Below the pieces are notes generated by a model. The model ran no database searches. It was not told the DNA's origin and saw only the letters and a program-made list of their open reading frames with translations. This document shows positions 6,379-40,108 of a stretch of 41,758 nt of DNA, in pieces; the first letter of the stretch is position 1, and the number at the start of each line of letters is the position of its first letter. The DNA lies in IMG/VR virus record IMGVR_UViG_3300037119_006847, positions 1 to 41,758 of that record. The stretch is one strand, 5' to 3'. The position numbers and the translations under genes are program-made. The stretch is from a virus.

Positions 6379-6573
6379 ATGAGACACCTCTTCAACTGGA
6401 CCTATTACTACCACTACCTAACCCTCGCCCAAGCGCGAGAAGCTAAACGCCTACACCTCCAACTAGCCAACAAATACACCCAAGCAGACAGGCTAAGGGA
6501 ACTTGCAAACGAACTCCTACAACCTAGCTGGCTAACCCTCGCGATGGGGCGAGTAAGCAAACAAGCACGCTAG
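6379..6573 (+). CDS. Hypothetical small protein, 64 aa
   Basis: The product begins with an aromatic segment (HLFNWTYYYHYL) followed by a basic amphipathic helix (AQAREAKRLHLQLANKYTQADRLRELANELL). No signal peptide or known domain. It has no ribosome site, but a promoter-like -10 box lies 7 nt before the ATG. It is divergent from the HTH gene and followed at once by a long imperfect hairpin at 6600-6646. The helix could bind nucleic acid or a partner, which cannot be judged from sequence. Confidence 0.5.
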   Translation: MRHLFNWTYYYHYLTLAQAREAKRLHLQLANKYTQADRLRELANELLQPSWLTLAMGRVSKQAR

Positions 6574-6599
6574 CCCACTGGCCCACAAGCCTGCACTCA

Positions 6600-6646
6600 C
6601 ACACGGCCTGCCAGTTCACTGACTAGTGAAAATTCAGGCTGGTGTG
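6600..6646. repeat. Imperfect 47-bp hairpin
   Basis: Nested arms CACAC/GTGTG, GCCTG/CAGGC and a perfect TTCACT-GACT-AGTGAA core, separated by small internal loops. No T-run follows on either side, so it is not a standard terminator. It could be a recombinase arm or core site, an operator, or part of the origin. Confidence 0.55.
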
Positions 6647-6762
6647 CAATGGAGCATGGGTGCTACCGCGCTGGACAGCTATCTGCTGGAGGCTTACTGC
6701 GCCGAAGGCCGAGTACCCGAAAGTTTCAGAAAAAGTGTAAGGGGGGATATATACACATATTT

Positions 6763-6785
6763 GGGTGGGGAGGGTGGTTGGCGGG
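6763..6785 (+). other. G-rich tract with quadruplex potential
   Basis: Reads GGG-T-GGGG-A-GGG, then GG-TT-GG-C-GGG, and is preceded by an AT-rich segment with TATATA. The first GGGTGGG can alternatively pair with CCCACCC at 6785-6793. Either structure would be a strong block or opening site for replication or transcription. Confidence 0.45.
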
Positions 6786-6794
6786 CCCACCCCC

Positions 6795-6833
6795 CTTAAC
6801 ATAATCTTAACCCAACCTTAACCAGATCTTCAC
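6795..6833 (+). repeat. Four 11-bp phased CTTAAC repeats (Pho-box-like)
   Basis: CTTAAC begins at 6795, 6806 and 6817, and CTTCAC at 6828, each exactly one helical turn apart. Direct repeats with 11-bp period are the binding mode of OmpR/PhoB-type response regulators; the cyanobacterial Pho box in particular is described as PyTTAAPyPy repeats with 3-bp gaps. A two-copy version (CTTAACCAAAG TTTAAC) occurs at 8356-8372 before the metallopeptidase gene. Replication iterons are the alternative. Confidence 0.55.
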
Positions 6834-6903
6834 ACTCCCTCACATGCACCAATCAATACGCACACATAGCCCAATGGCCACGTGCCCAAGGCTAGGGGTA
6901 TGG

Positions 6904-7491
6904 TGGCATGGGGGTCACAGGTCTATTAGAGGCGTGGCATATGGGGGCGTATGGTTACAGGGGCTTAGGTGCTTGGGGGCTGGCTTGCTACCATACAGTG
7001 GCACACCTTTTAATAGAATATTCTGGGTATATATATACATAGAGAATGATCAAACAGCCCCTGCCTCAAGCTTGATAGCATCCATCTCACCAGCATAAAG
7101 GCACGCTTATCGTGCTGGTATGCCAGTGAGAGAGCGGCACAGCAGGCCATCAGCCAGCATACCGCCTATCTACTGGCATGCCGTGCATCCTGTTGCCTGG
7201 ATGGCGTGCATGACGTGTAGACCACGCTAATGGCATGAGCTCTTAAAACAGCCCACAACGGCCACTAGTGAGCAGGTGCCCTGATGCTCTGGCACTATCT
7301 CAATCGTGGCATGGTGGGGGTTTTAAAGCTGTCTAAGGAGTTGCTGTGTGCAAAAGATCGACATGGGTTAGATTAGGTTGTGATTTTGAGGCTTTGACTT
7401 AGTTTCTGCAATTGCAGCGTCAAGACTGTCAACTAGTTCTACACCAAACATGCCACACCTTTGTGAGAATCCGTGGCGTTAGCGTTGGCAT
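6904..7491 (+). repeat. Scattered TGGCAT repeats
   Basis: The hexamer occurs six times on the plus strand: 6904, 6935, 7174, 7231, 7317 and 7486, often within GTGGCATGG or TGGCATGC. The last copy forms the -24 element of the sigma-54 promoter. Spacing is irregular. They may be operator or iteron copies, or remnants of repeated promoter elements. Confidence 0.4.
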
Positions 7492-7513
7492 GCTGGTTGC
7501 ATCTACTTAGGTA
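7436..7513 (+). promoter_or_regulatory. Sigma-54 promoter module A
   Basis: TGGCAT (7486-7491), a 5-nt gap and TTGC (7497-7500), followed by A, match the -24/-12 consensus TGGCAC-N5-TTGCA at all but one position. The surrounding 78 bp aligns without gaps to 8880-8957 (about 49 of 78 identical by my count), with conserved blocks upstream (GTTC-ACAC) and just after the -12 box (CTAC-TAGGTA). The predicted start is only about 4-5 nt before ATG 7516. The palindrome CTGCAATTGCAG and TTGAC/GTCAA arms near 7393-7422 could bind an activator or IHF. Confidence 0.65.
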
Positions 7514-7515
7514 TT

Positions 7516-7761
7516 ATGAGAACAGATAAACTAGAAGCCCTTCTTAACCTTTCGTTTATAATTGGTTTTGCCTTTGTACTTTCTACATTCAGCCCCATCA
7601 CAGCATCTGAAGCCTCTGCCAGTCTTGAAGGTATGCCAGTGTTAACGCAGTATAGCCGCAACGCGTCAGATGCATATGAGATGGATGAGTACGAAGTGTG
7701 CACCTTGGTACACAAGTTGCCTGATTCTGAATGTGACAAGCTGATTGAAGAGGTTAACTAG
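7516..7761 (+). CDS. Small exported or membrane protein, 81 aa
   Basis: Residues about 8-30 (ALLNLSFIIGFAFVLSTF) form a hydrophobic segment after MRTDKLE, ending near SPITASEASA, which fits a signal peptide with cleavage around TASEA or a single N-terminal anchor. The remainder is acidic with two Cys. No family recognised. It is the first gene behind sigma-54 module A and has no Shine-Dalgarno, the ATG lying only a few nt after the predicted start of transcription. Its stop is 1 nt before the next start. Confidence 0.6.
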   Translation: MRTDKLEALLNLSFIIGFAFVLSTFSPITASEASASLEGMPVLTQYSRNASDAYEMDEYEVCTLVHKLPDSECDKLIEEVN

Positions 7762-7762
7762 T

Positions 7763-8083
7763 ATGTATCGCCTGACTCTTCGCAACTTTAAAGACGCCAT
7801 CATTTGGACAGGCACGTATAAAACGCTGCAGACCCTTCGGCGCGCAGCCGATCGGCAAGACTGCATCTATGGCAGCTATCTGCGCCGTGAGATTGTGCAG
7901 CTCTACACTGTTAAGAATGTGCAAACTGGTGAGCTGTCGAGATGGTCAATGGCTCAGATCCTTGCAGAGGTTAACCGTGATCGCACTGCAGACTGGTCTG
8001 ACTATACCTCCGCTGACTTCGCAGAAGGGCTAGAGGCCTTCACTGAGTATCGTTTGAAAACGTCGCCCTTAACCAAAGCTTAA
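7763..8083 (+). CDS. Hypothetical protein, 106 aa
   Basis: I start at ATG 7763, which has AGAGG 9 nt upstream inside the preceding gene; an upstream TTG (7745) is less likely. The product is rich in Arg and Thr (YRLTLRNFKDAIIWTGTYKTLQTLRRAAD), with a middle VKNVQTGELSRWSMAQI that looks like a small beta-hairpin plus helix, a form common in phage proteins of unknown role. No catalytic motif, no signal peptide. It lies in the sigma-54 operon directly after the exported protein. Confidence 0.65.
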   Translation: MYRLTLRNFKDAIIWTGTYKTLQTLRRAADRQDCIYGSYLRREIVQLYTVKNVQTGELSRWSMAQILAEVNRDRTADWSDYTSADFAEGLEAFTEYRLKTSPLTKA

Positions 8084-8094
8084 AGGAGTGAATT

Positions 8095-8349
8095 ATGATC
8101 ATCAACATCGCACCCTATACCGCTCTAGGTTTCAACGAATCCCAAGCCACCACCCTAGCATGGGCTGAGCATTATGAGAGCAGGATGGCTGAGGTTGAAT
8201 ACCGCTATCAAGGCTTAGTAGATGGCACCATACGCATCGATGTTTACTGTGAAGATTGTAAGCAAGGTGGCCAGTTCTTGCCATCCACAACTAGAGACTT
8301 CATCACCGCTCACAAAGGCCACAGCACGAAAAGCTTCAAAGTACGCTAG
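8095..8349 (+). CDS. Small zinc-finger-like protein, 84 aa
   Basis: A strong ribosome site (AAAGGAG) precedes ATG 8095. The second half has CEDC, then 19 residues later a H-x-x-H pair (FITAHKGH): a CxxC...HxxH layout typical of small phage zinc-binding proteins. The first half is acidic and helical. No enzymatic motif. It probably folds around one zinc; the partner (DNA, RNA or protein) is unknown. Confidence 0.65.
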   Translation: MIINIAPYTALGFNESQATTLAWAEHYESRMAEVEYRYQGLVDGTIRIDVYCEDCKQGGQFLPSTTRDFITAHKGHSTKSFKVR

Positions 8350-8407
8350 CCAACCCTTAACCAAAGTTTAACTGTGCCCACTGCCACAGGTTTAATAGAA
8401 TGAAGTT

Positions 8408-8851
8408 ATGAGAAGCACGACATTAAAACTCCTAGCCCTAGTGAGCCTTGCAGCATGCGGCCAGTTCCGCCCTACTGCCAGCTCACCAGAGCTAGAAGCA
8501 TACGCTGTGGCCTTTGAAGAGGCTGCCCTTGAGCATGGCATGCTGGTGCGCTCTAAGCCCATGGTGCTGGTTGATAGCTTCTCTCTCAAAGGTAACGGTG
8601 AGTTTCAGGCTATCTGCGTCTCTTATAGGGGCAAGCCATCACACGTTGAGGTCTTAAGGTCCACATATGAGAAGCTCACAGACGATGGCATGGAGGCTCT
8701 CACCTTTCATGAACAGGCACACTGTGCCCTAGGCTTAGATGGCCATGATAACAGCATCGCCTTGAGAGCTCCTGTTGCGCCTAATGGATCAGCTTGGGGT
8801 TATTCGCGTACTTACCTCATTGACGAACTATTTGACGCTGTAAACAAATAA
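8408..8851 (+). CDS. Lipoprotein zinc-metallopeptidase candidate
   Basis: Length 147 aa. MRSTTLKLLALVSLAACG is a lipoprotein signal peptide with lipobox LAAC and Cys17 as the lipidated residue. Residues 100-114 (FHEQAHCALGLDGHD) carry HEXXH (His101, Glu102, His105) with a third His at 113, the arrangement of gluzincin/metzincin-like zinc peptidases, though the spacing is not that of classical metzincins (HEXXHXXGXXH). The mature protein is small and would sit in the outer or inner membrane facing the periplasm. A TTTAATAGAAT element and two phased CTTAAC-type repeats precede it. It might act on envelope proteins in lysis or superinfection exclusion; substrate unknown. Confidence 0.7.
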   Translation: MRSTTLKLLALVSLAACGQFRPTASSPELEAYAVAFEEAALEHGMLVRSKPMVLVDSFSLKGNGEFQAICVSYRGKPSHVEVLRSTYEKLTDDGMEALTFHEQAHCALGLDGHDNSIALRAPVAPNGSAWGYSRTYLIDELFDAVNK

Positions 8852-8879
8852 ACCCTTTGAATTCAGCCCCTGTATAAAA

Positions 8880-8957
8880 GTTCAACACTAAGACTGCCAC
8901 ACATCCTAAGAATCTCCACACCTTAACCGTGGCACGCCGCTTGCAACTACCTAGGTA
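8880..8957 (+). promoter_or_regulatory. Sigma-54 promoter module B
   Basis: TGGCAC (8930-8935), a 5-nt gap and TTGCA (8941-8945) are a full match to the sigma-54 -24/-12 consensus. The module is the second copy of 7436-7513. Transcription would start near 8956; a small GCCCG/CGGGC hairpin and AGAGGAG then precede ATG 8989. Confidence 0.75.
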
Positions 8958-8988
8958 AGCCCGAGTAACGGGCAGAGGAGACCACAGT

Positions 8989-9378
8989 ATGAGAACGCTC
9001 TTAGATATCAGTAACGAGTACCGCGCAACATACCGCCAAGGCCTAAACCTTAAAACCAAGAAGGCTTCGCAAAAGAAGTTTGAGATCTGCCGTGAACTCT
9101 CAAGAGAGTTTGGCGATGTACTGCAAGAGACCCTGCAAGAGGGCGAGGTACTCACTGGCGCTCTCTTCGGCATCACTGGCATCATCGGTGGCGCTGGTGC
9201 TGCGTACCCTGAAGCCAAGATCACCGTCTTGAATGTTTATTCAGAGCAGGTTGTGGTCGCTATACCAACAGCAGAATACCCCAATGGCGAGGTATTCAAG
9301 ATCAACTTCTTAGACGGTTACATGGCAGAACGTAACCTTAACGCCCTCTTAACGCTTAAATCAAAAAAGGTGGCTTAA
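8989..9378 (+). CDS. Hypothetical protein, 129 aa
   Basis: Good ribosome site (AGAGGAG, 8 nt). The N-terminal 50 residues are basic and helical (RATYRQGLNLKTKKASQKKFEI by pattern), followed by a Gly/Ala-rich hydrophobic stretch (ALFGITGIIGGAGAAYP, about 60-76) that could be a membrane-interacting hairpin or a buried loop, and then a beta-rich C-terminal region. No family recognised. It is the first gene of the run driven by sigma-54 module B. Confidence 0.65.
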   Translation: MRTLLDISNEYRATYRQGLNLKTKKASQKKFEICRELSREFGDVLQETLQEGEVLTGALFGITGIIGGAGAAYPEAKITVLNVYSEQVVVAIPTAEYPNGEVFKINFLDGYMAERNLNALLTLKSKKVA

Positions 9379-9379
9379 C

Positions 9380-9595
9380 ATGAACTTCATTCAAACAGTT
9401 CTCCTAAGCACCACTGATTCATTCGGCACCAAGACAATAGCTTACAAAGCCACTGATTCTAAAATCTACGTCCAGTCTGCAGATGAAGGCAGCCACTATA
9501 CCTTGGACGCTGGCAGCAGAGCACATGGTACAGAAGTCAAGCCAGTGGATGGCACCATTGACCTTAGTTTTATTTTTAAAAGAGAGAGGGCTTAA
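9380..9595 (+). CDS. Hypothetical small protein, 71 aa
   Basis: Begins 1 nt after the previous stop, with AAGGTGG 7 nt upstream. The product appears beta-rich (TKTIAYKATDSKIYVQSADEG by pattern), with no Cys, signal peptide or known motif. Its stop is 1 nt from the next start. Context and ribosome site support translation; function is unknown. Confidence 0.6.
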   Translation: MNFIQTVLLSTTDSFGTKTIAYKATDSKIYVQSADEGSHYTLDAGSRAHGTEVKPVDGTIDLSFIFKRERA

Positions 9596-9596
9596 C

Positions 9597-9887
9597 ATGA
9601 AACTCATTAAACTAATCCAAACAAAGTACCTAGGGCCTACTAATTTTAAGGGGTCAAGAGTTAAGGCAGTAGACGATAAGGGCAACTCTGCCATCTCCGA
9701 ATATAGAAGTGAACTAAGCAGCGAAGAGAATCACCGCCACGCCGCAAAAGTGTTACTCGATAAAATTGAAACGAAGCACAAATTGAATGAACGTGAACAC
9801 TCCGAGATGGTCTTAACAGCCTGCGGATCATGGCAGTCTGGCTACATGTTTTCTGCCGAACGTAAACAATTTGCCAAAGGTGGATGA
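9597..9887 (+). CDS. Hypothetical protein, 96 aa
   Basis: I choose ATG 9597, which has GAGAGGG at proper distance, not the longer open frame from 9483 that overlaps the preceding gene. The product opens with a basic beta-like segment (MKLIKLIQTKYLGPTNFKG), then an RVKAVDD strand and a helical half with HRHAAKVLLDKI. The layout resembles small phage proteins that end in a helical RHAAKxLLxK region, which I have seen in many hypothetical entries. No catalytic motif. Confidence 0.65.
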   Translation: MKLIKLIQTKYLGPTNFKGSRVKAVDDKGNSAISEYRSELSSEENHRHAAKVLLDKIETKHKLNEREHSEMVLTACGSWQSGYMFSAERKQFAKGG

Positions 9888-9888
9888 T

Positions 9889-10047
9889 GTGACCAAGCCA
9901 AACCTAGACATTCAAAACATCTTACTAGTCTTAGAACTGAAACCCGAAGAGCGCGAGAGAGTGATCTCGATGCTCGTCGAAGAGATTAAGAAGCTTAGAG
10001 CAGAGAACGCTGCTCTGATTGACGAATTTAAAGGAGAGACCAAGTGA
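9889..10047 (+). CDS. Short coiled-coil protein, 52 aa
   Basis: GTG start with AAAGGTGG upstream; the stop overlaps the next GTG start. Residues 15-45 (LELKPEERERVISMLVEEI and KKLRAENAALIDEF) have a leucine heptad pattern, so a short coiled coil is expected. A protein this small may be an oligomerisation or regulator peptide. The tight packing between neighbours and a natural composition support it. Confidence 0.6.
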   Translation: MTKPNLDIQNILLVLELKPEERERVISMLVEEIKKLRAENAALIDEFKGETK

Positions 10048-10391
10048 AACACTTTAAAAACCCAAACGATGCACTGAAGTACCACGTAACTGGCGCTATT
10101 GAGAGAGGTGAGGCGGTGGCTATTGAAGCTGTTGTGAAAACTAAACACACCCCGGGCCCTTGGACGGTCAAACCGTCAATACTTGAGACCTATGACTTTG
10201 TTGAGATTGGAGAAAATCAAATTGATGTCTTCACCGAAGGCAACGCACGCTTAATAGCAGCAGCACCGGAGATGCTTGAGGCTCTAGAGCATGTCTACCG
10301 TGAACTAATTGACGCTGGAGAATCAGCAGACGCCGTCCACTTCAGAGTTGTCGGTGCCGCCATCCGTAAAGCAAAAGGTGAAACAGTATGA
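10044..10391 (+). CDS. Phage protein with HTPGPW...NARLIAAAPEMLEAL motif, 115 aa
   Basis: GTG start with AAGGAGAG 8 nt before. The signature HTPGPWTV followed by GNARLIAAAPEMLEALE is shared by a very common but uncharacterised phage family (Ead/Ea22-like region). The first 35 residues are specific to this phage. A distant relative with ATPGPW lies at 38868-39305. Role unknown; members often sit in accessory early regions, as here. The stop overlaps the next ATG. Confidence 0.75.
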   Translation: MKHFKNPNDALKYHVTGAIERGEAVAIEAVVKTKHTPGPWTVKPSILETYDFVEIGENQIDVFTEGNARLIAAAPEMLEALEHVYRELIDAGESADAVHFRVVGAAIRKAKGETV

Positions 10392-10588
10392 AACGAATCC
10401 AGAAGCTATATGAAGCCTCCAGTATTTTAATAGGCGCTGAAAAATCAATAGCAGCAAGAGTTACTGTGTTGGTGCTTAGTAGATCAGACCTCAAGAGACT
10501 GCGCCCACATCTTAAAGCCCTTAGTGAAGCGTTCTACCGGTTGATTTTTGAGATATCTGAAATGATGAAGGAGGAGGAGTCAAAATGA
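10388..10588 (+). CDS. Hypothetical small helical protein, 66 aa
   Basis: ATGA overlap with the preceding gene and AAAGGTGAA upstream. Helical throughout, with basic middle (SRSDLKRLRPHLKAL) and an acidic tail (MMKEEESK). The tail also carries the strong AAGGAGGAGGAG ribosome site for the following membrane protein. No domain recognised; could be a partner or regulator of that membrane protein. Confidence 0.6.
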   Translation: MKRIQKLYEASSILIGAEKSIAARVTVLVLSRSDLKRLRPHLKALSEAFYRLIFEISEMMKEEESK

Positions 10589-10794
10589 GAAACAATAAAC
10601 CAAAGCTCTTCACAGCAGAATTCATCACAGTATGCATGCTCTTCTTAAGCTTAGTAGTGGGCGCTGTAACCATAGCCGTTTACACAGACCGCTTACCGCT
10701 GTGGGTGATTCTAGTCTTGGGCTTCTGGTATCCAGCAGGGGTGCTTATAAGAGCGATCTATACCAAGCTAAAAGGCAACGGTGACTCACTATGA
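10585..10794 (+). CDS. Small two-TM membrane protein, 69 aa
   Basis: Two hydrophobic segments, about 12-34 (FITVCMLFLSLVVGAVTIAV) and 39-60 (PLWVILVLGFWYPAGVLIRA), with a basic C-terminus (YTKLKGNG). The size and topology resemble a class II holin, but it lies far from the lysis genes and next to the recombinase, so a superinfection-exclusion or other membrane role is as likely. Very strong ribosome site; ATGA overlaps on both sides. Confidence 0.65.
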   Translation: MRNNKPKLFTAEFITVCMLFLSLVVGAVTIAVYTDRLPLWVILVLGFWYPAGVLIRAIYTKLKGNGDSL

Positions 10795-11393
10795 AGAAGA
10801 AATTCTTAAATGAGAATGAAGCTATCTCACTGCTTGAGTTTCTAGAGAGCACTGATACTCACCATTCAATGATCATAGAGCTCTTGTTCCATACTGGGAT
10901 GAGGTGCCATGAGTTGTGGGGGCTGACGGTGGGTGATCTTAACCTTAAGACCAATGTCTTAACACTGTGGTCTGGGGCTAAGGGTAGCCATGGCAGGTTC
11001 TGGGAGCTCCCTATAGGGTATGTCTCGCGGGTGCGCAGCAAGGTCAGGAAGGGGGGCTTTGGTTCCAAGTCAAAGTTGGTGGAGGCTTTGGGGTATGTCT
11101 CAAAGGGTGGCTCTGCTGACACGTTCAAATCAATCCTTCGAAGGGATTGGCTAGTGATCCGTAAGAGGGTGTGGGGGGTGATGAATCTTGGCCTCCACTG
11201 CTTGCGCCATACCTTCTGCATCACTTATTTCAAGTTGCCCGGTAAAGAGCTCACTGATGCGCAGGCAGCCATGGGTCATAAGTCCATACAGTCCACAGCG
11301 CTCTATGCTGCAAACTTTGATGATGCAGCACACGCCAAGTCCACAGCCAGTATGTATGAAGAGATGAGAGTTAGAGTCAGGGGGATAAAATGA
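10791..11393 (+). CDS. Tyrosine recombinase/integrase, catalytic core only
   Basis: Length 200 aa. The active-site set is complete: Arg38 (GMRCHE), Lys64 in a beta-hairpin (SGAKGSHGRFWELP), His136-x-x-Arg139 (LHCLRHTF), His163 (MGHKS) and Tyr172 (ALYAANF). Typical phage integrases are 300-400 aa with an N-terminal arm-binding domain; here the catalytic domain starts at about residue 10, so arm-type DNA binding is missing or supplied elsewhere. It could integrate, resolve genome dimers or invert DNA. No attP core was recognised, though the 6600-6646 hairpin is a candidate. Embedded in the small-gene operon with ATGA overlaps at both ends. Confidence 0.88.
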   Translation: MKKKFLNENEAISLLEFLESTDTHHSMIIELLFHTGMRCHELWGLTVGDLNLKTNVLTLWSGAKGSHGRFWELPIGYVSRVRSKVRKGGFGSKSKLVEALGYVSKGGSADTFKSILRRDWLVIRKRVWGVMNLGLHCLRHTFCITYFKLPGKELTDAQAAMGHKSIQSTALYAANFDDAAHAKSTASMYEEMRVRVRGIK

Positions 11394-11635
11394 AATCTGG
11401 AACCAAAGTTTTAATAGCGTACTTAATCATGCAGTTTCTAACAGTGGGATGCTCTAGTGGAGAGCCCCTAACCTATGCCCAATGGCAGCATCAGCGGATG
11501 ATCTTTGATAGCCTCCAGCAGAATGGTGAGAATCTCGTTAAGAATGCTGAAGCTTTTGACCGCATAGGTAGAGAACCAACAACTCAAAAGCCCACGGTCT
11601 GCCAGCCCTTTGGCAGAGGGTTTATCTGTAACTAG
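11390..11635 (+). CDS. Small lipoprotein, 81 aa
   Basis: MKSGTKVLIAYLIMQFLTVGCSSG is a lipoprotein signal with lipobox TVGC. The mature part is about 60 residues with a helical region and a Cys pair near the end (TVCQPFGRGFIC) that could form a disulfide in the periplasm. AGGGGG precedes the start. An outer-spanin-like or exclusion lipoprotein is possible, but there is no proline-rich stretch typical of Rz1, and the lysis genes are elsewhere. Confidence 0.7.
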   Translation: MKSGTKVLIAYLIMQFLTVGCSSGEPLTYAQWQHQRMIFDSLQQNGENLVKNAEAFDRIGREPTTQKPTVCQPFGRGFICN

Positions 11636-11646
11636 AGGAGATCGGT

Positions 11647-11862
11647 ATGAAAGTAACTAATGCCAAAATTATGTATAGGTTTGAAGTAACACATAAAGAA
11701 CTGATCATGATTCAAAAGGGGCTCCAGAAGTTTGGTAAGGCTGAATACCATGAGTTGGCTGACGACATAATGGTTAGACAAGCAAGATCTATTGAAGATC
11801 TAAGAAGAATCTTCCAAGCCGCCATTGAGTGTATTCAAACTCCAAAGGACGATGAGGAGTAA
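11647..11862 (+). CDS. Hypothetical small protein, 71 aa
   Basis: AGAGGAG lies 8 nt before ATG 11647. Helical product with basic first half (RFEVTHKELIMIQKGLQKFGKAEYHEL) and acidic C-terminus (KDDEE). No domain recognised. It is the last plus-strand gene of the 7.5-11.9 kb operon and faces the replication genes head-on; no strong intrinsic terminator was found in the 46-bp gap. Confidence 0.6.
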   Translation: MKVTNAKIMYRFEVTHKELIMIQKGLQKFGKAEYHELADDIMVRQARSIEDLRRIFQAAIECIQTPKDDEE

Positions 11863-13906: not shown

Positions 13907-14103
13907 CGACCGTAGTAGCCGCCATTGGTGCGCTTCTTGTTCTCTTTAAGCTCATTGGACCTCACTGAAGGCGTGAACACTTCTTTAATCTTGTTCCACT
14001 CTTCTTTTAGAACTTCAGAAGCTGGTTTGTTGATCCCTTGCTGAGCCGCTTTGGCTGCATCTGGATCTACACCGTGTTTGTTTCTATCCCATTCATTGCT
14101 CAT
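13903..14103 (-). CDS. Hypothetical small hydrophilic protein, 66 aa
   Basis: Start taken at ATG 14103 (MSNEWDRNKHGVDPD); it overlaps the glycosyltransferase stop by 11 bp. Hydrophilic and helical with a basic, Gly/Tyr tail (KKRTNGGYYGR), no signal peptide or known domain. It ends in a 4-bp tail-to-tail overlap with the GroES-like gene. It probably shares the mRNA of the upstream glycosyltransferase. Confidence 0.55.
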   Translation of the reverse strand: MSNEWDRNKHGVDPDAAKAAQQGINKPASEVLKEEWNKIKEVFTPSVRSNELKENKKRTNGGYYGR

Positions 14104-14869
14104 GAGTTTTATTATATTCCCCGACCTTGGCGTTGAGAACTCTGGCGTCAATATCTTTTGAAAGAATCTCTAGGCGGTTAAGAGAGCTGATTTCAGCCTG
14201 GGTGGGGAAGCGCCCTCTGGTGGCGCTCTCCACATGCACCGCCTCAATGGTTGGCGTGTAAAAAACCTTACGATCAGCCATCAGCGCCTGTATGCAAAAC
14301 CACACATCCTCATAGCCTAAAGCAAAAGTCTCATCATATAGACCGCATTCCAGTGAAAACCCCTGCAGTGCGCCAGTCACCCCTCCAACAAAGCGCTCTT
14401 CTTTATAGAGCCTTGCGGAGTTAGCTGGCAGCCTTTTCTCATATTCAACTGGCAAACAATCGCCACGATACCAGAACCCTGCAGATTGAATGCGCCCGGT
14501 GGGATAGTAGAGGAGGCCGCCTACAATATCCCCATAGCGAAAGCCTCTGATGAAGGCTGAGAGTACTGGGCGAGTGAATTCTATATCCTGATTCACTGTG
14601 ACAACGTGGGTGTAGCCGTGCTCCTTTGCATACTCTAGGCCGATGTTGACTGATGAGCTGTAGCCGGGGGGTTTGTGCTTATGGATATGTTTGCAGCCGT
14701 ATTCAGTGGCCCACAGCACACCTAGACTTGCAAATTCTTCTACAATGAGCGTGTGCTCCAGCATCCCTGGCTCATGGCGTCTAAGGGACTCTAAGCATCT
14801 TTTTAACAAGCGCTCATCAGACATGCCTCTTGCTAAAACTGGAATGATAAATAATACTCTCGTCAGCAT
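14093..14869 (-). CDS. Family 2 glycosyltransferase
   Basis: Length 258 aa from ATG 14869 (MLTRVLFIIPV). YSSSVNIGLEYA and YTHVVTVNQDIEF give the nucleotide-binding GT-A features, with NQD in the DxD position. GGVTGALQGFSL followed by LGYEDVWFC supplies the acceptor loop and the ED catalytic base, as in rhamnosyl- or galactofuranosyl-type GT2 enzymes. No membrane anchor. Start regions of this gene and the plus-strand exonuclease are only 20 bp apart. It likely modifies a host surface glycan or a phage component; donor unknown. Confidence 0.85.
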   Translation of the reverse strand: MLTRVLFIIPVLARGMSDERLLKRCLESLRRHEPGMLEHTLIVEEFASLGVLWATEYGCKHIHKHKPPGYSSSVNIGLEYAKEHGYTHVVTVNQDIEFTRPVLSAFIRGFRYGDIVGGLLYYPTGRIQSAGFWYRGDCLPVEYEKRLPANSARLYKEERFVGGVTGALQGFSLECGLYDETFALGYEDVWFCIQALMADRKVFYTPTIEAVHVESATRGRFPTQAEISSLNRLEILSKDIDARVLNAKVGEYNKTHEQ

Positions 14870-14888
14870 CCTGGGGAGGAGCCTAGCA

Positions 14889-15728
14889 TTGAAACCCAAC
14901 TATGATCTACATATGCCAGAAAAGGCATACCGCTCTGCTCCTGGCCTAAACTACTCGCATCTGAAACTGATGCACCAGCCCTTTCTCTACAAGCAAATGG
15001 TCCTAGAGGGTAAGGGTAAAGAGCGCACAAACTCCCTGTCGATTGGCACCGCTGTGCACATCCACATTCTAGAGCCGCACAAGAAGCACCACATTAAAAA
15101 CCTCGCTGACTATGGCCATGAAGATCGCAAAAAGTGGGCAGCTATTAGAAAGCTAGAAGCCGATAACCCAGATGATCTCTTCTTCTCGCCAAAGGACTAT
15201 GAAGCCATCAACAAGATGGTGACAAGCGTCAAGCTCTCTCAGCAAGCCCTAAAGCTCTACGCCTCTGGCACGTGGAATGAAGTGTCAATGTTTTGGCGTG
15301 ATCCGGTGCACGGCTTTGACTGCAAGGGTAGAGCAGACACCTTAAACCTAGAAGAAGGTTATGTGGTGGATCTTAAAACCACTAAAGACGCTAAAGGTTT
15401 CATGAAAGAGTGCGTTGATTATGGCTACCATATCCAGGCAGCATTCTATCTTAGAGGCCTAAAAGCTATCACAGGACGAGACTTTGACTGGTATTGGGTG
15501 GCTGTGGACTCAGCTTCTCCGCACTTTTGCTACGTCTACAAAGCATCCCTTATGACTCTTGAGATCGGTAACTATCAAACCGATGAATACATGAACAAGC
15601 TCTCAGTCTGCTTAGAGACAGACGTTTGGCCCATCGGCAATGAAGAGCTCATCCAAGGCGAACTACCTGGCTGGTATACAGCAAGGGTTCTAGAAAAAGT
15701 ACAAAAGTATAAGGAGATCACGTTATGA
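14889..15728 (+). CDS. RecE/exonuclease VIII-like PD-(D/E)XK nuclease (DUF3799-type)
   Basis: Length 279 aa from TTG 14889, chosen because GGGGAGGAG lies just upstream; ATG 14913 is the alternative. AYRSAPGLNYSHLK at 13-26 and SIGTAVHIHILEP around His57 are typical of RecE-like exonucleases. The catalytic residues are Glu131, Asp150 (KGRAD), Asp161-x-Lys163 (VVDLKTT) and Gln183 in YHIQAAFY. The enzyme would resect double-stranded DNA 5' to 3', leaving single strands for the SSB-like protein encoded next (ATGA overlap). Together with the following genes it forms a recombination module; a dedicated annealing protein was not recognised. Confidence 0.85.
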   Translation: MKPNYDLHMPEKAYRSAPGLNYSHLKLMHQPFLYKQMVLEGKGKERTNSLSIGTAVHIHILEPHKKHHIKNLADYGHEDRKKWAAIRKLEADNPDDLFFSPKDYEAINKMVTSVKLSQQALKLYASGTWNEVSMFWRDPVHGFDCKGRADTLNLEEGYVVDLKTTKDAKGFMKECVDYGYHIQAAFYLRGLKAITGRDFDWYWVAVDSASPHFCYVYKASLMTLEIGNYQTDEYMNKLSVCLETDVWPIGNEELIQGELPGWYTARVLEKVQKYKEITL

Positions 15729-16168: not shown

Positions 16169-16525
16169 ATGAGAACTTCAAGCTGTAAAGCCAAGGGCAG
16201 GCGTGCTTGCCAAGAGGTAAAAGAGTTAATACTGTTCTCATTCCCCGAACTCACAGACCTTGACGTTACAGTAACCCCATCTGGCGTGACTGGTGTTGAT
16301 GTGCAGCTATCACAGCGAGCCTTTGACCTAGTCCCCCTCGCCATAGAGTGTAAGAACACCGAGAGCATAAACATCTGGAAGGCGCTAGAGCAGGCCAAAA
16401 GCCATGTGAAGGGCTTAGAGATGCCGGTATTGTTCTTTAAACGCAACAGATCTGAGCTCCAAGTGGCTCTCTCTGCTAAGAACTTCTTTAAAATATTATG
16501 CGCAAAAAAAGAATCACAGTTATAA
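16169..16525 (+). CDS. PD-(D/E)XK nuclease, Holliday-junction-resolvase-like
   Basis: Length 118 aa; TAGGGGA precedes ATG 16169. Glu16 in the first helix (CQEVKEL), Asp44 in GVDVQLS, Glu60-x-Lys62 in AIECKN and Gln75 in ALEQAKSH give the E...D...ExK...Q pattern of small phage resolvase-type or VRR-NUC-like nucleases. A role in processing recombination intermediates before packaging fits its place after exonuclease and SSB. It overlaps the following glycosyltransferase gene by 28 bp. A structure-specific nuclease other than a resolvase is possible. Confidence 0.75.
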   Translation: MRTSSCKAKGRRACQEVKELILFSFPELTDLDVTVTPSGVTGVDVQLSQRAFDLVPLAIECKNTESINIWKALEQAKSHVKGLEMPVLFFKRNRSELQVALSAKNFFKILCAKKESQL

Positions 16526-17592
16526 GCTTCAGCTCCTCTGGCGGTCTCATCTACCAAAGAGCACACATTCCTTTCCGTCACCTATCTGACATTTATGACT
16601 TCCACTTTGTGGACCTTTGCGATGTGCGCCATGTGGACTTCTTCTACACAGACTGCATTGTGATGGTGCACCCTTGGAGCCTAGACTTTGCACACGTTGC
16701 TGCCAGGGCGAGATTCCACTATCAGTGCCCTGTAGTGGTGGACCTAGATGACCTTTTAATGGAACTCCCTATAGATCACCCAGACTATGGCAACATCAAT
16801 GGCAGGCCACTGGTGGACACCCTCCAAACCGCAAACGAAGTTGTGTACTCCACGCCGTACCTAAAAGCTAAGCTTGGACACCTCAACAAGTCCGCAACTG
16901 TGATTGAGAACACCATTCCAGAGCATGTGTTTAAGAGCTACAACACGCCAAATAAGCCATACAAGACCACATTTACAGTGGGCTGGACTGGTGGACAGTC
17001 GCACCGCTCAGACATCCTCTACACTTTTGAAAAGGGACTAAGAGAGTTTCTCATTGAAAACGACGACACTCGTGCGCACTTCCACGGCTTATGCCCTCAA
17101 GAGCTCTACCGCTCGCTAGGTGCACAGGTTTACTTTGAGCCAGCCACAGTGGACTACATGGACTACCATGCTATTTGTGAGACCTATCCATTTGACGTGT
17201 GTCTTGTGGGACTTGTGGATCATGCTTTTAACCATGCAAAGAGTGACCTTAGACTCATCGACATGGCTCCGCATAACATCCCCATTATCGCTAGCCCCAG
17301 GTCTGACTTCTATAAGCATAAAGATCGCCAAATAATGCTCTATGCTGAAGACAATAGCTCTGAGCACATGAGCTGGAAGGATGCTCTGCAGTACGCCAAG
17401 GACCATCCAGAAGAGATGAAGGCGATGGCAGCAAGAGCCAAGGCTTACGTTCTAGAAGAGCGACTATCAACTGTCGCAGCAGAGAAGTGGTTTCACGTTC
17501 TAGAGCGAGCTATGTCAAAAGGTCAGTTTAGATCAAGTCAAATGGGTCGATCTCTTCTGGCTCATTCCCTTGAACTGCACCAGCTTGACTAG
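16498..17592 (+). CDS. GT4-type (GT-B fold) glycosyltransferase
   Basis: Length 364 aa. The N-terminal domain starts ITVISFSSSGGLIYQRAHIPFRHL. The linker into the second domain reads TVGWTGGQSHRSDI, a run I associate with phage and bacterial GT4-like transferases. Later FNHAKSDLRLIDMAPHNIPIIASP holds the sugar-nucleotide region (K...L.D.A...VPVIAS). Preceded by the resolvase gene, with which it overlaps by 28 bp; no clear ribosome site. The 3' end overlaps the convergent ejection-protein gene by 65 bp. It may add sugar to a host surface polymer or phage protein. Confidence 0.75.
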   Translation: MRKKRITVISFSSSGGLIYQRAHIPFRHLSDIYDFHFVDLCDVRHVDFFYTDCIVMVHPWSLDFAHVAARARFHYQCPVVVDLDDLLMELPIDHPDYGNINGRPLVDTLQTANEVVYSTPYLKAKLGHLNKSATVIENTIPEHVFKSYNTPNKPYKTTFTVGWTGGQSHRSDILYTFEKGLREFLIENDDTRAHFHGLCPQELYRSLGAQVYFEPATVDYMDYHAICETYPFDVCLVGLVDHAFNHAKSDLRLIDMAPHNIPIIASPRSDFYKHKDRQIMLYAEDNSSEHMSWKDALQYAKDHPEEMKAMAARAKAYVLEERLSTVAAEKWFHVLERAMSKGQFRSSQMGRSLLAHSLELHQLD

Positions 17593-39400: not shown

Positions 39401-39624
39401 CTGAGGCTGAATACAAGCACTTGGTAAAGATAGCTCGCACTTTGGAAATATCAATCCAACAATATGACTACGCGAAGGTACCCATACACGCGGAGCTTGT
39501 TATAGAGAAGTGCATCGAGGACATCAAAGGAATACTCAACCAAGAGCCCCCAGCATCTCGCACCCCCGAACAAGAGCGTGAGTTTGCCAAATTCATCGAT
39601 GAAGAGATTGCGCCTGAGATATGA
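39397..39624 (+). CDS. Hypothetical helical protein, 75 aa
   Basis: Starts at ATG 39397 in an ATGA overlap; an upstream in-frame ATG (39376) would run inside the TM peptide gene. Helical throughout (MTEAEYKHLVKIARTLEIS, VIEKCIEDIKGILNQ), with an acidic C-terminal helix after PPASRTPEQE. No recognised family. Overlaps the DUF962 gene by 4 bp. Confidence 0.6.
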   Translation: MTEAEYKHLVKIARTLEISIQQYDYAKVPIHAELVIEKCIEDIKGILNQEPPASRTPEQEREFAKFIDEEIAPEI

Positions 39625-39899
39625 CTTTTAGCTCATTCAAAGAATTCTACCCCTTCTACCTATCGCAACACACGCGCACGTCCACAAAGCGCCTGCATTT
39701 CGTCGGCTCATGCGCAACACTCATGCTGCTAGCTTTCGGCAAGGTGATAGCCGCCATAGTGGCAGGATACGCCTTTGCTTGGATTGGACATTTCTTCTTT
39801 GAGAAGAATCGCCCGGCTACATTCACTCACCCGCTGTATTCCCTCATGGGAGATTGGCGGATGTTTTGGGATGTGCTGCGTGGGAGGGTGGAGTTGTGA
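39621..39899 (+). CDS. DUF962 / Mpo1-like membrane protein
   Basis: Length 92 aa. FKEFYPFYLSQHTRTSTKRLHFVG, then GYAFAWIGHFFFEKNRPATF and LYSLMGDWRMFWD form the full signature of DUF962, with His17, His26, His57, Glu61 and Asp78 as conserved polar residues and two membrane stretches (about 29-55). Yeast Mpo1 of this family is an Fe(II)-dependent dioxygenase in alpha-oxidation of 2-hydroxy fatty acids; bacterial members are uncharacterised. A phage copy is unusual and hints at fatty-acid or membrane-lipid modification. ATGA/GTGA overlaps on both sides. Confidence 0.85.
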   Translation: MTFSSFKEFYPFYLSQHTRTSTKRLHFVGSCATLMLLAFGKVIAAIVAGYAFAWIGHFFFEKNRPATFTHPLYSLMGDWRMFWDVLRGRVEL

Positions 39900-40108
39900 A
39901 ATACTTTAAGCTTAAGCATGTGCGTAAGTCTTTTGAGGCATCGTCCATGAGGGACTCTCGGAAGTCTGGGCTTGTCACTTTAAAGGAACTATCTGAGCGC
40001 ACCGGGTTCACACAGCAATATCTGTCAGACGTTGAGAATAATAGGCGAATCATATCCCAGGATAAAGCCACAATCATAGAGGATGCGTTGAAAGGTTTAC
40101 TCCAATGA
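39896..40108 (+). CDS. XRE/Cro-CI-type HTH protein, 70 aa
   Basis: GTG 39896 overlaps the DUF962 stop. Residues 27-65 contain LVTLKELSERTGFTQQYLSDVENNRR, a typical five-helix XRE DNA-binding domain (LxxLAxxxGxSxxxLSxxExG-like), with almost nothing else. It may repress its own operon, or act as the lytic/lysogenic Cro-like switch together with the recombinase. No operator was identified. Confidence 0.8.
   Translation: MKYFKLKHVRKSFEASSMRDSRKSGLVTLKELSERTGFTQQYLSDVENNRRIISQDKATIIEDALKGLLQ

Follow-up and report, generated by a model that had tools for sequence, protein, structure and literature searches.

Two probable sigma-54 (RpoN) promoters in a duplicated control module of a 41.8-kb phage genome

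Gene content and noncoding features around the two elements

The window, i.e. the whole stretch of DNA analysed (G000; 41,758 bases), represents a whole circular phage record whose ends are joined by a 126-bp repeat, and approximately 10% of it is noncoding. The phage encodes a portal protein (phrog_1216), a large terminase, a major head protein, and an amidase, as well as a DnaB-type helicase, RNase H, exonuclease VIII, and a tyrosine recombinase. Most structural genes are located on the minus strand (17.5–36.2 kb), and small genes occupy the plus strand around the two -24/-12 elements. An HTH_3 protein is encoded at 39854–40108.

Close relatives are few. Portal alignment recovered only L004 (identical, 10 kb), L005 (portal 93%), L098 (portal 71%), and L099 (27%); the contigs of L004, L005, and L098 end short of the region described here, and searches with proteins 8408, 8989, and 14673 yielded no useful relatives. 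An unusual phage cargo gene, specifying an Mpo1-like 2-hydroxy fatty acid dioxygenase (PF06127, 1.7e-33), was found at 39621–39899. Its DNA is 92% identical to that of L005 and is conserved better than the neighbouring genes; the best matches of the gene (64%) are in various proteobacteria and are not decisive for the host. Cargo of the surface-sugar type is present at 418–2853 (methyltransferase-like (weak), LbH acyltransferase, and glycosyltransferase-like genes), and further glycosyltransferases are encoded at 14093–14899 and 16498–17592.

The features of the region are as follows.

7436–7513, plus strand: module copy 1 (78 bp; 49/78 ungapped identity to 8880–8957)
7486–7501, plus strand: putative sigma-54 -24/-12 element 1, TGGCATGCTGGTTGCA (matrix score 18.0, joint best in the window)
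7516–7761, plus strand: first ORF downstream of site 1, encoding an 81-aa protein whose N terminus has a signal-like hydrophobic stretch (ORF and translation)
7763–8083, plus strand: small protein; the ORF was listed from TTG 7745, and the ATG was chosen because the gene has a ribosome site of its own (gaagagg)
8095–8349, plus strand: small protein, 84 aa (ORF)
8408–8851, plus strand: predicted lipoprotein (LAAC lipobox), metalloprotease-like, with an HEQAH motif (translation; motif identified by eye)
8880–8957, plus strand: module copy 2 (78 bp), from a scan of 78-mer pairs
8930–8945, plus strand: putative sigma-54 -24/-12 element 2, TGGCACGCCGCTTGCA, with the full consensus TGGCACGN4TTGCW (matrix score 18.0)
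8959–8973, plus strand: 5'-leader hairpin GCCCG-AGTAA-CGGGC, directly following the point where transcript 2 is predicted to start (-9.3 kcal/mol, z -3.43)
8974–8980, plus strand: ribosome-binding site AGAGGAG before ATG 8989
8989–9378, plus strand: first gene downstream of site 2, for a 129-aa protein (ORF with ribosome site)
10791–11393, plus strand: tyrosine recombinase (catalytic domain; PF00589, 1e-15; phrog_216), downstream in the same gene run

The 81-aa protein matches no PHROGs or Pfam family. The same holds for the predicted lipoprotein, which carries HEQAH...GLDGHD and for which no phage homologue was found, and the 129-aa protein has no homologue in the phage collection. The gene run that follows site 2 (8989–11862, including the recombinase gene) contains a single larger gap, at 9887–10044.

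Several other noncoding features were observed nearby. Just upstream of site 1, at 7080–7340, the minus strand is predicted to fold into five successive hairpins (-115 kcal/mol, z -5.67), and the plus strand has a z of -3.46. This structured stretch is a candidate replication origin or structured RNA; no Rfam match was obtained in the window or in 6560–7540. An iteron-like cluster of TGGCA, with seven copies on the plus strand in approximately 400 bp, lies at 6904–7310, and several of the copies fall within hairpin stems. The repeat CCCTTAACCAAAGYTTAA (17/18) is located near gene ends at 8066–8083 and 8354–8371, and CTTAACC occurs eight times on the plus strand and once on the minus strand. 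The segments 7009–7019 and 8391–8401, the latter just before ATG 8408, share TTTAATAGAAT, a possible further regulatory repeat.

The duplicated module and its -24/-12 elements

Only two sites in the window match TGGCAYN5TTGCA perfectly, at 7486–7501 and 8930–8945, both on the plus strand; the coordinates and letters given in the original prediction are right. Each carries the GG (-24) and GC (-12) dinucleotides, separated by 10 bp, of sigma-54 promoters, for which the wider consensus is TGGCAC-N5-TTGC. Both elements are intergenic and are located just 5' of genes on the same strand, with 14 bp (site 1) and 43 bp (site 2) from the end of the element to the ATG. At site 2, transcription is predicted to start near 8956 (if -12 is C8944), a position with the correct spacing to the gene and its leader, which begins with the 5-bp GC stem of the hairpin. 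At site 1, the predicted start near 7512 (if -12 is C7500) lies 4 nt before ATG 7516 and leaves no usable leader; thus, either the mRNA would be leaderless or the promoter would serve the next gene (7763).

The elements were scored with a matrix built from 29 intergenic, ChIP-enriched sigma-54 sites of Salmonella (PMC3844500), a genus that may not match the host of the phage. With this Salmonella-derived matrix, both elements score 18.0 bits and are the two best matches in the window, separated by 3.3 bits from the next (14.7). This score is higher than those of 22 of the 29 true Salmonella sites (leave-one-out; median 16.2, minimum 13.2). Two matches this good were found in none of 300 order-2 Markov sequences, and when column-permuted matrices were applied to the real window, a second-best match as good was obtained with 1 in 1000. 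Across another six phage sequences (127 kb, mostly relatives), no site reaches 16 bits, and no strong site was found in the distant relative MW202601. A search for sigma-70 -35/-10 hexamers with 16–18 bp spacing gave none at either module and three matches in 2.9 kb, which is the chance level.

The original prediction had further described the flanking 78 bp as aligning without gaps between the two sites. The ungapped alignment is real, but the identity is just 63% (49/78; P ~2e-12 for one random pair) and comes mainly from two blocks, AGTTCnACACnAA..TGCCACAC and TGGCAyGCnGnTTGCAnCTACyTAGGTA, between which approximately 20 bp match poorly. When all same-strand 78-mers were compared with each other, this pair was the most similar one after the terminal repeat (next, 47/78; background tail, 44). 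Outside the -24/-12 core, 38 of 67 positions are identical (binomial P ~3e-8), and the likeness picks up again at the start codons (TATGAGAAC), downstream of an insertion of 29 nt in copy 2. Both TGCCACAC and CTACNTAGG occur in the window at these two places only. The palindrome TACCTAGGTA, which is conserved in the module, overlaps the predicted start and could bind a repressor, whether or not sigma-54 acts here. Neither TACCTAGGTA nor TGCCACAC is a sigma-54 determinant; these blocks could be operator sites. No enhancer site was recognised near the elements. A weak 12-bp palindrome, CTGCAATTGCAG, is located at 7406, near -100 of site 1, and might be a position for activator binding; the counterpart at site 2, TGAATTCA, is weaker and lies at a different distance, near -95.

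The extended start region in other viral contigs and bacterial genomes

The exact 28-bp module pattern has no match in IMG/VR, and comparison of the module with named phages gave no meaningful blastn match. A pattern combining TGCCACAC with the core gave nine matches, approximately the number estimated by chance, none of which had the rest of the module or was related through proteins. The relaxed pattern TGGCAYN5TTGCNNCTANNTAGGT matched only L095 (IMGVR_UViG_3300028925_005751) and L096 among 2.9 million viral contigs, a count that by itself is within the estimated chance, since no total length in bases is given for the collection. These two contigs agree at positions that the pattern leaves unspecified, namely GGAT before TTGC, TA inside CTATATAGG, and G after GGT.

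L095 is of the same broad phage type by its portal (phrog_1216) and terminase (TerL, phrog_2) families, which are those of this phage. It contains three strong sigma-54 sites (16.4–19.6 bits) on one strand and outside ORFs of at least 80 aa, and two of them (19.6 and 16.4 bits) fell outside the search pattern. Its site at 828 has the same start region and is followed by a hairpin, a ribosome site, and an ATG, as at site 2. L095 differs in being very diverged (TerL ~23% identical), in that no family matched the gene 3' of its site at 828, and in having a sigma-70-like promoter (TTGACA-N17-TATATT) beside one of its sigma-54 sites, just downstream of that at 1811. Dense GGTACTAAGTAGTAC-like palindromes surround its sites at 1863 and 1811 (L095:1220–1940) and are possible activator or replication sites.

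In bacteria, TGGCAYN5TTGCWNCTANNTAGG gave four matches in 3 of 291 genomes of the phylum of L073 (a Bacteriovoracaceae MAG; Bdellovibrionota-type) and none in 398 genomes of the phylum of L007 (Luteibacter). All four matches have TA as inner bases and are located some 15–120 nt upstream of a gene for a small exported protein (signal or lipoprotein peptide, identified by eye). Sigma-54 was found in two of the three genomes with matches and was not detected in the third, which is fragmented. These matches support the extended element as a real subclass of sigma-54 promoters, and they weakly suggest a phage host in or near Bdellovibrionota. Such a host is no more than hinted at, because the GC content of the fetched stretches is unlike that of the phage and the phage portal had no match in the 291 genomes, in a search that is uninformative for want of a positive control. 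The idea that the TAGG start region is general to Bdellovibrionota-type sigma-54 sites was rejected, as TATAGG was present in 1 of 10 strict sites, i.e. in a subclass.

Proposed regulation and comparison with known systems

Taken as a whole, the two elements are probably sigma-54 (RpoN) promoters that form part of a duplicated control module, the likeness of whose copies could stem from duplication of the entire unit or from convergence. Sigma-54 promoter identity is the best-supported reading of the sequence and is likely because of the matrix score, the noncoding position, the strand, the spacing to the gene at site 2, and the lack of a competing sigma-70 site, and because the same extended element is present in L095, L096, and several bacterial genomes.

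Three other explanations were weighed. The module might be an operator–promoter pair at which a DNA-binding regulator, of the phage or of the host, controls a promoter that is not of the sigma-54 type, with TACCTAGGTA and TGCCACAC as binding sites and the -24/-12 match incidental. Such an arrangement would account for conservation well past -24/-12, which at site 2 takes in a perfect 10-bp palindrome, and the HTH_3 protein of the phage could supply a regulator; we nevertheless consider it unlikely, since fitting sigma-70-like hexamers are lacking, TGCCACAC and CTACNTAGG are confined to the two modules, and the extended form accompanies sigma-54 cores in unrelated contigs as well as in bacteria (in searches that required the core). 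Chance matches to the consensus in TGGCA-rich noncoding DNA are less probable still: TGGCA motifs are indeed numerous in 6900–7310, and with two mismatches allowed the pattern is mildly more frequent than in shuffled sequence (40 vs 31), but the Markov and permuted-matrix controls, the duplication, and the L095 contig all argue against this explanation. That the direct repeats, 1,444 bp apart and near a recombinase gene, are recognition sites of the tyrosine recombinase encoded at 10791, flanking an exchangeable 1.4-kb cassette, is very improbable given that the copies, with mismatches at 29 of 78 positions, have diverged too far for site-specific exchange, share no evident inverted-arm and spacer core, and both lie just upstream of genes.

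Returning to the sigma-54 reading, polymerase containing this factor needs an activator ATPase to start transcription (PMC3844500). The original prediction that no such activator is encoded here is borne out by the absence of PF00158 from the phage, and a sigma-54 gene (PF04552) is absent as well; both components would therefore have to be supplied by the host. From what can be read directly in the DNA, namely the sequence match, its rarity, the noncoding location, the strand, the spacing, the repeat pair, and the absent sigma-54 and activator genes, we infer binding, activation, transcript starts, operon extents, and a regulatory meaning. Host RNA polymerase with host sigma-54 would bind the -24/-12 sites as a closed complex, which a host activator ATPase would open, allowing transcription from near 8956 and 7512. 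The mRNA from promoter 2 would begin with the short hairpin, followed by the ribosome site and the gene run 8989–11862 with the tyrosine recombinase. The mRNA from promoter 1, leaderless or nearly so, would cover 7516–8349 and perhaps the lipoprotein gene at 8408; alternatively, promoter 1 may serve the well-initiated ORF at 7763.

If this is true, the phage genes behind these promoters would depend on a signal from the host and would not be on by default after infection. The signal itself, a nutrient or envelope-stress cue in the original prediction, is a matter of speculation. A broader scenario, which is conceivable although we regard it as doubtful, is that a group of phages on sigma-54-rich, possibly predatory bacteria uses a duplicated host-type sigma-54 promoter, whose start region is conserved, to make recombinase genes and genes for small exported proteins follow a developmental or stress activator of the host. 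Confirmation of the promoters would offer a direct way to ask which host state the phage awaits, and the extended start motif would become a handle for finding more cases.

No description of a sigma-54-driven phage operon was found in the open-access literature, a scope outside which many subscription papers lie. The nearest cases are a phage protein that resembles sigma-54 (PMC7693777) and two operons of the Fels-2 prophage that are higher in an rpoN mutant than in the wild type (PMC3844500). The chromosomal Bdellovibrionota-type sigma-54 promoters with TTGCWNCTATATAGG (L100–L104), from A+T-rich genomes, share the extended start region and the exported-protein gene that follows it; they differ from those of the phage in GC content (34–37% in the fetched stretches vs 49%) and in their inner bases (TA vs CT or CC). 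The phage elements resemble the sigma-54 regulon of Salmonella (PMC3844500) in the TGGCACGN4TTGCW consensus, the spacing, and the noncoding position upstream of operons, and the first 15 bases of phage site 2 are identical to the Salmonella STM4535 promoter (PMC3844500). Compared with bacterial sigma-54 promoters, those described here are distinguished by being phage-borne, by their duplication together with flanking sequence, and by the extra conserved CTACyTAGGTA at -10 to +1.
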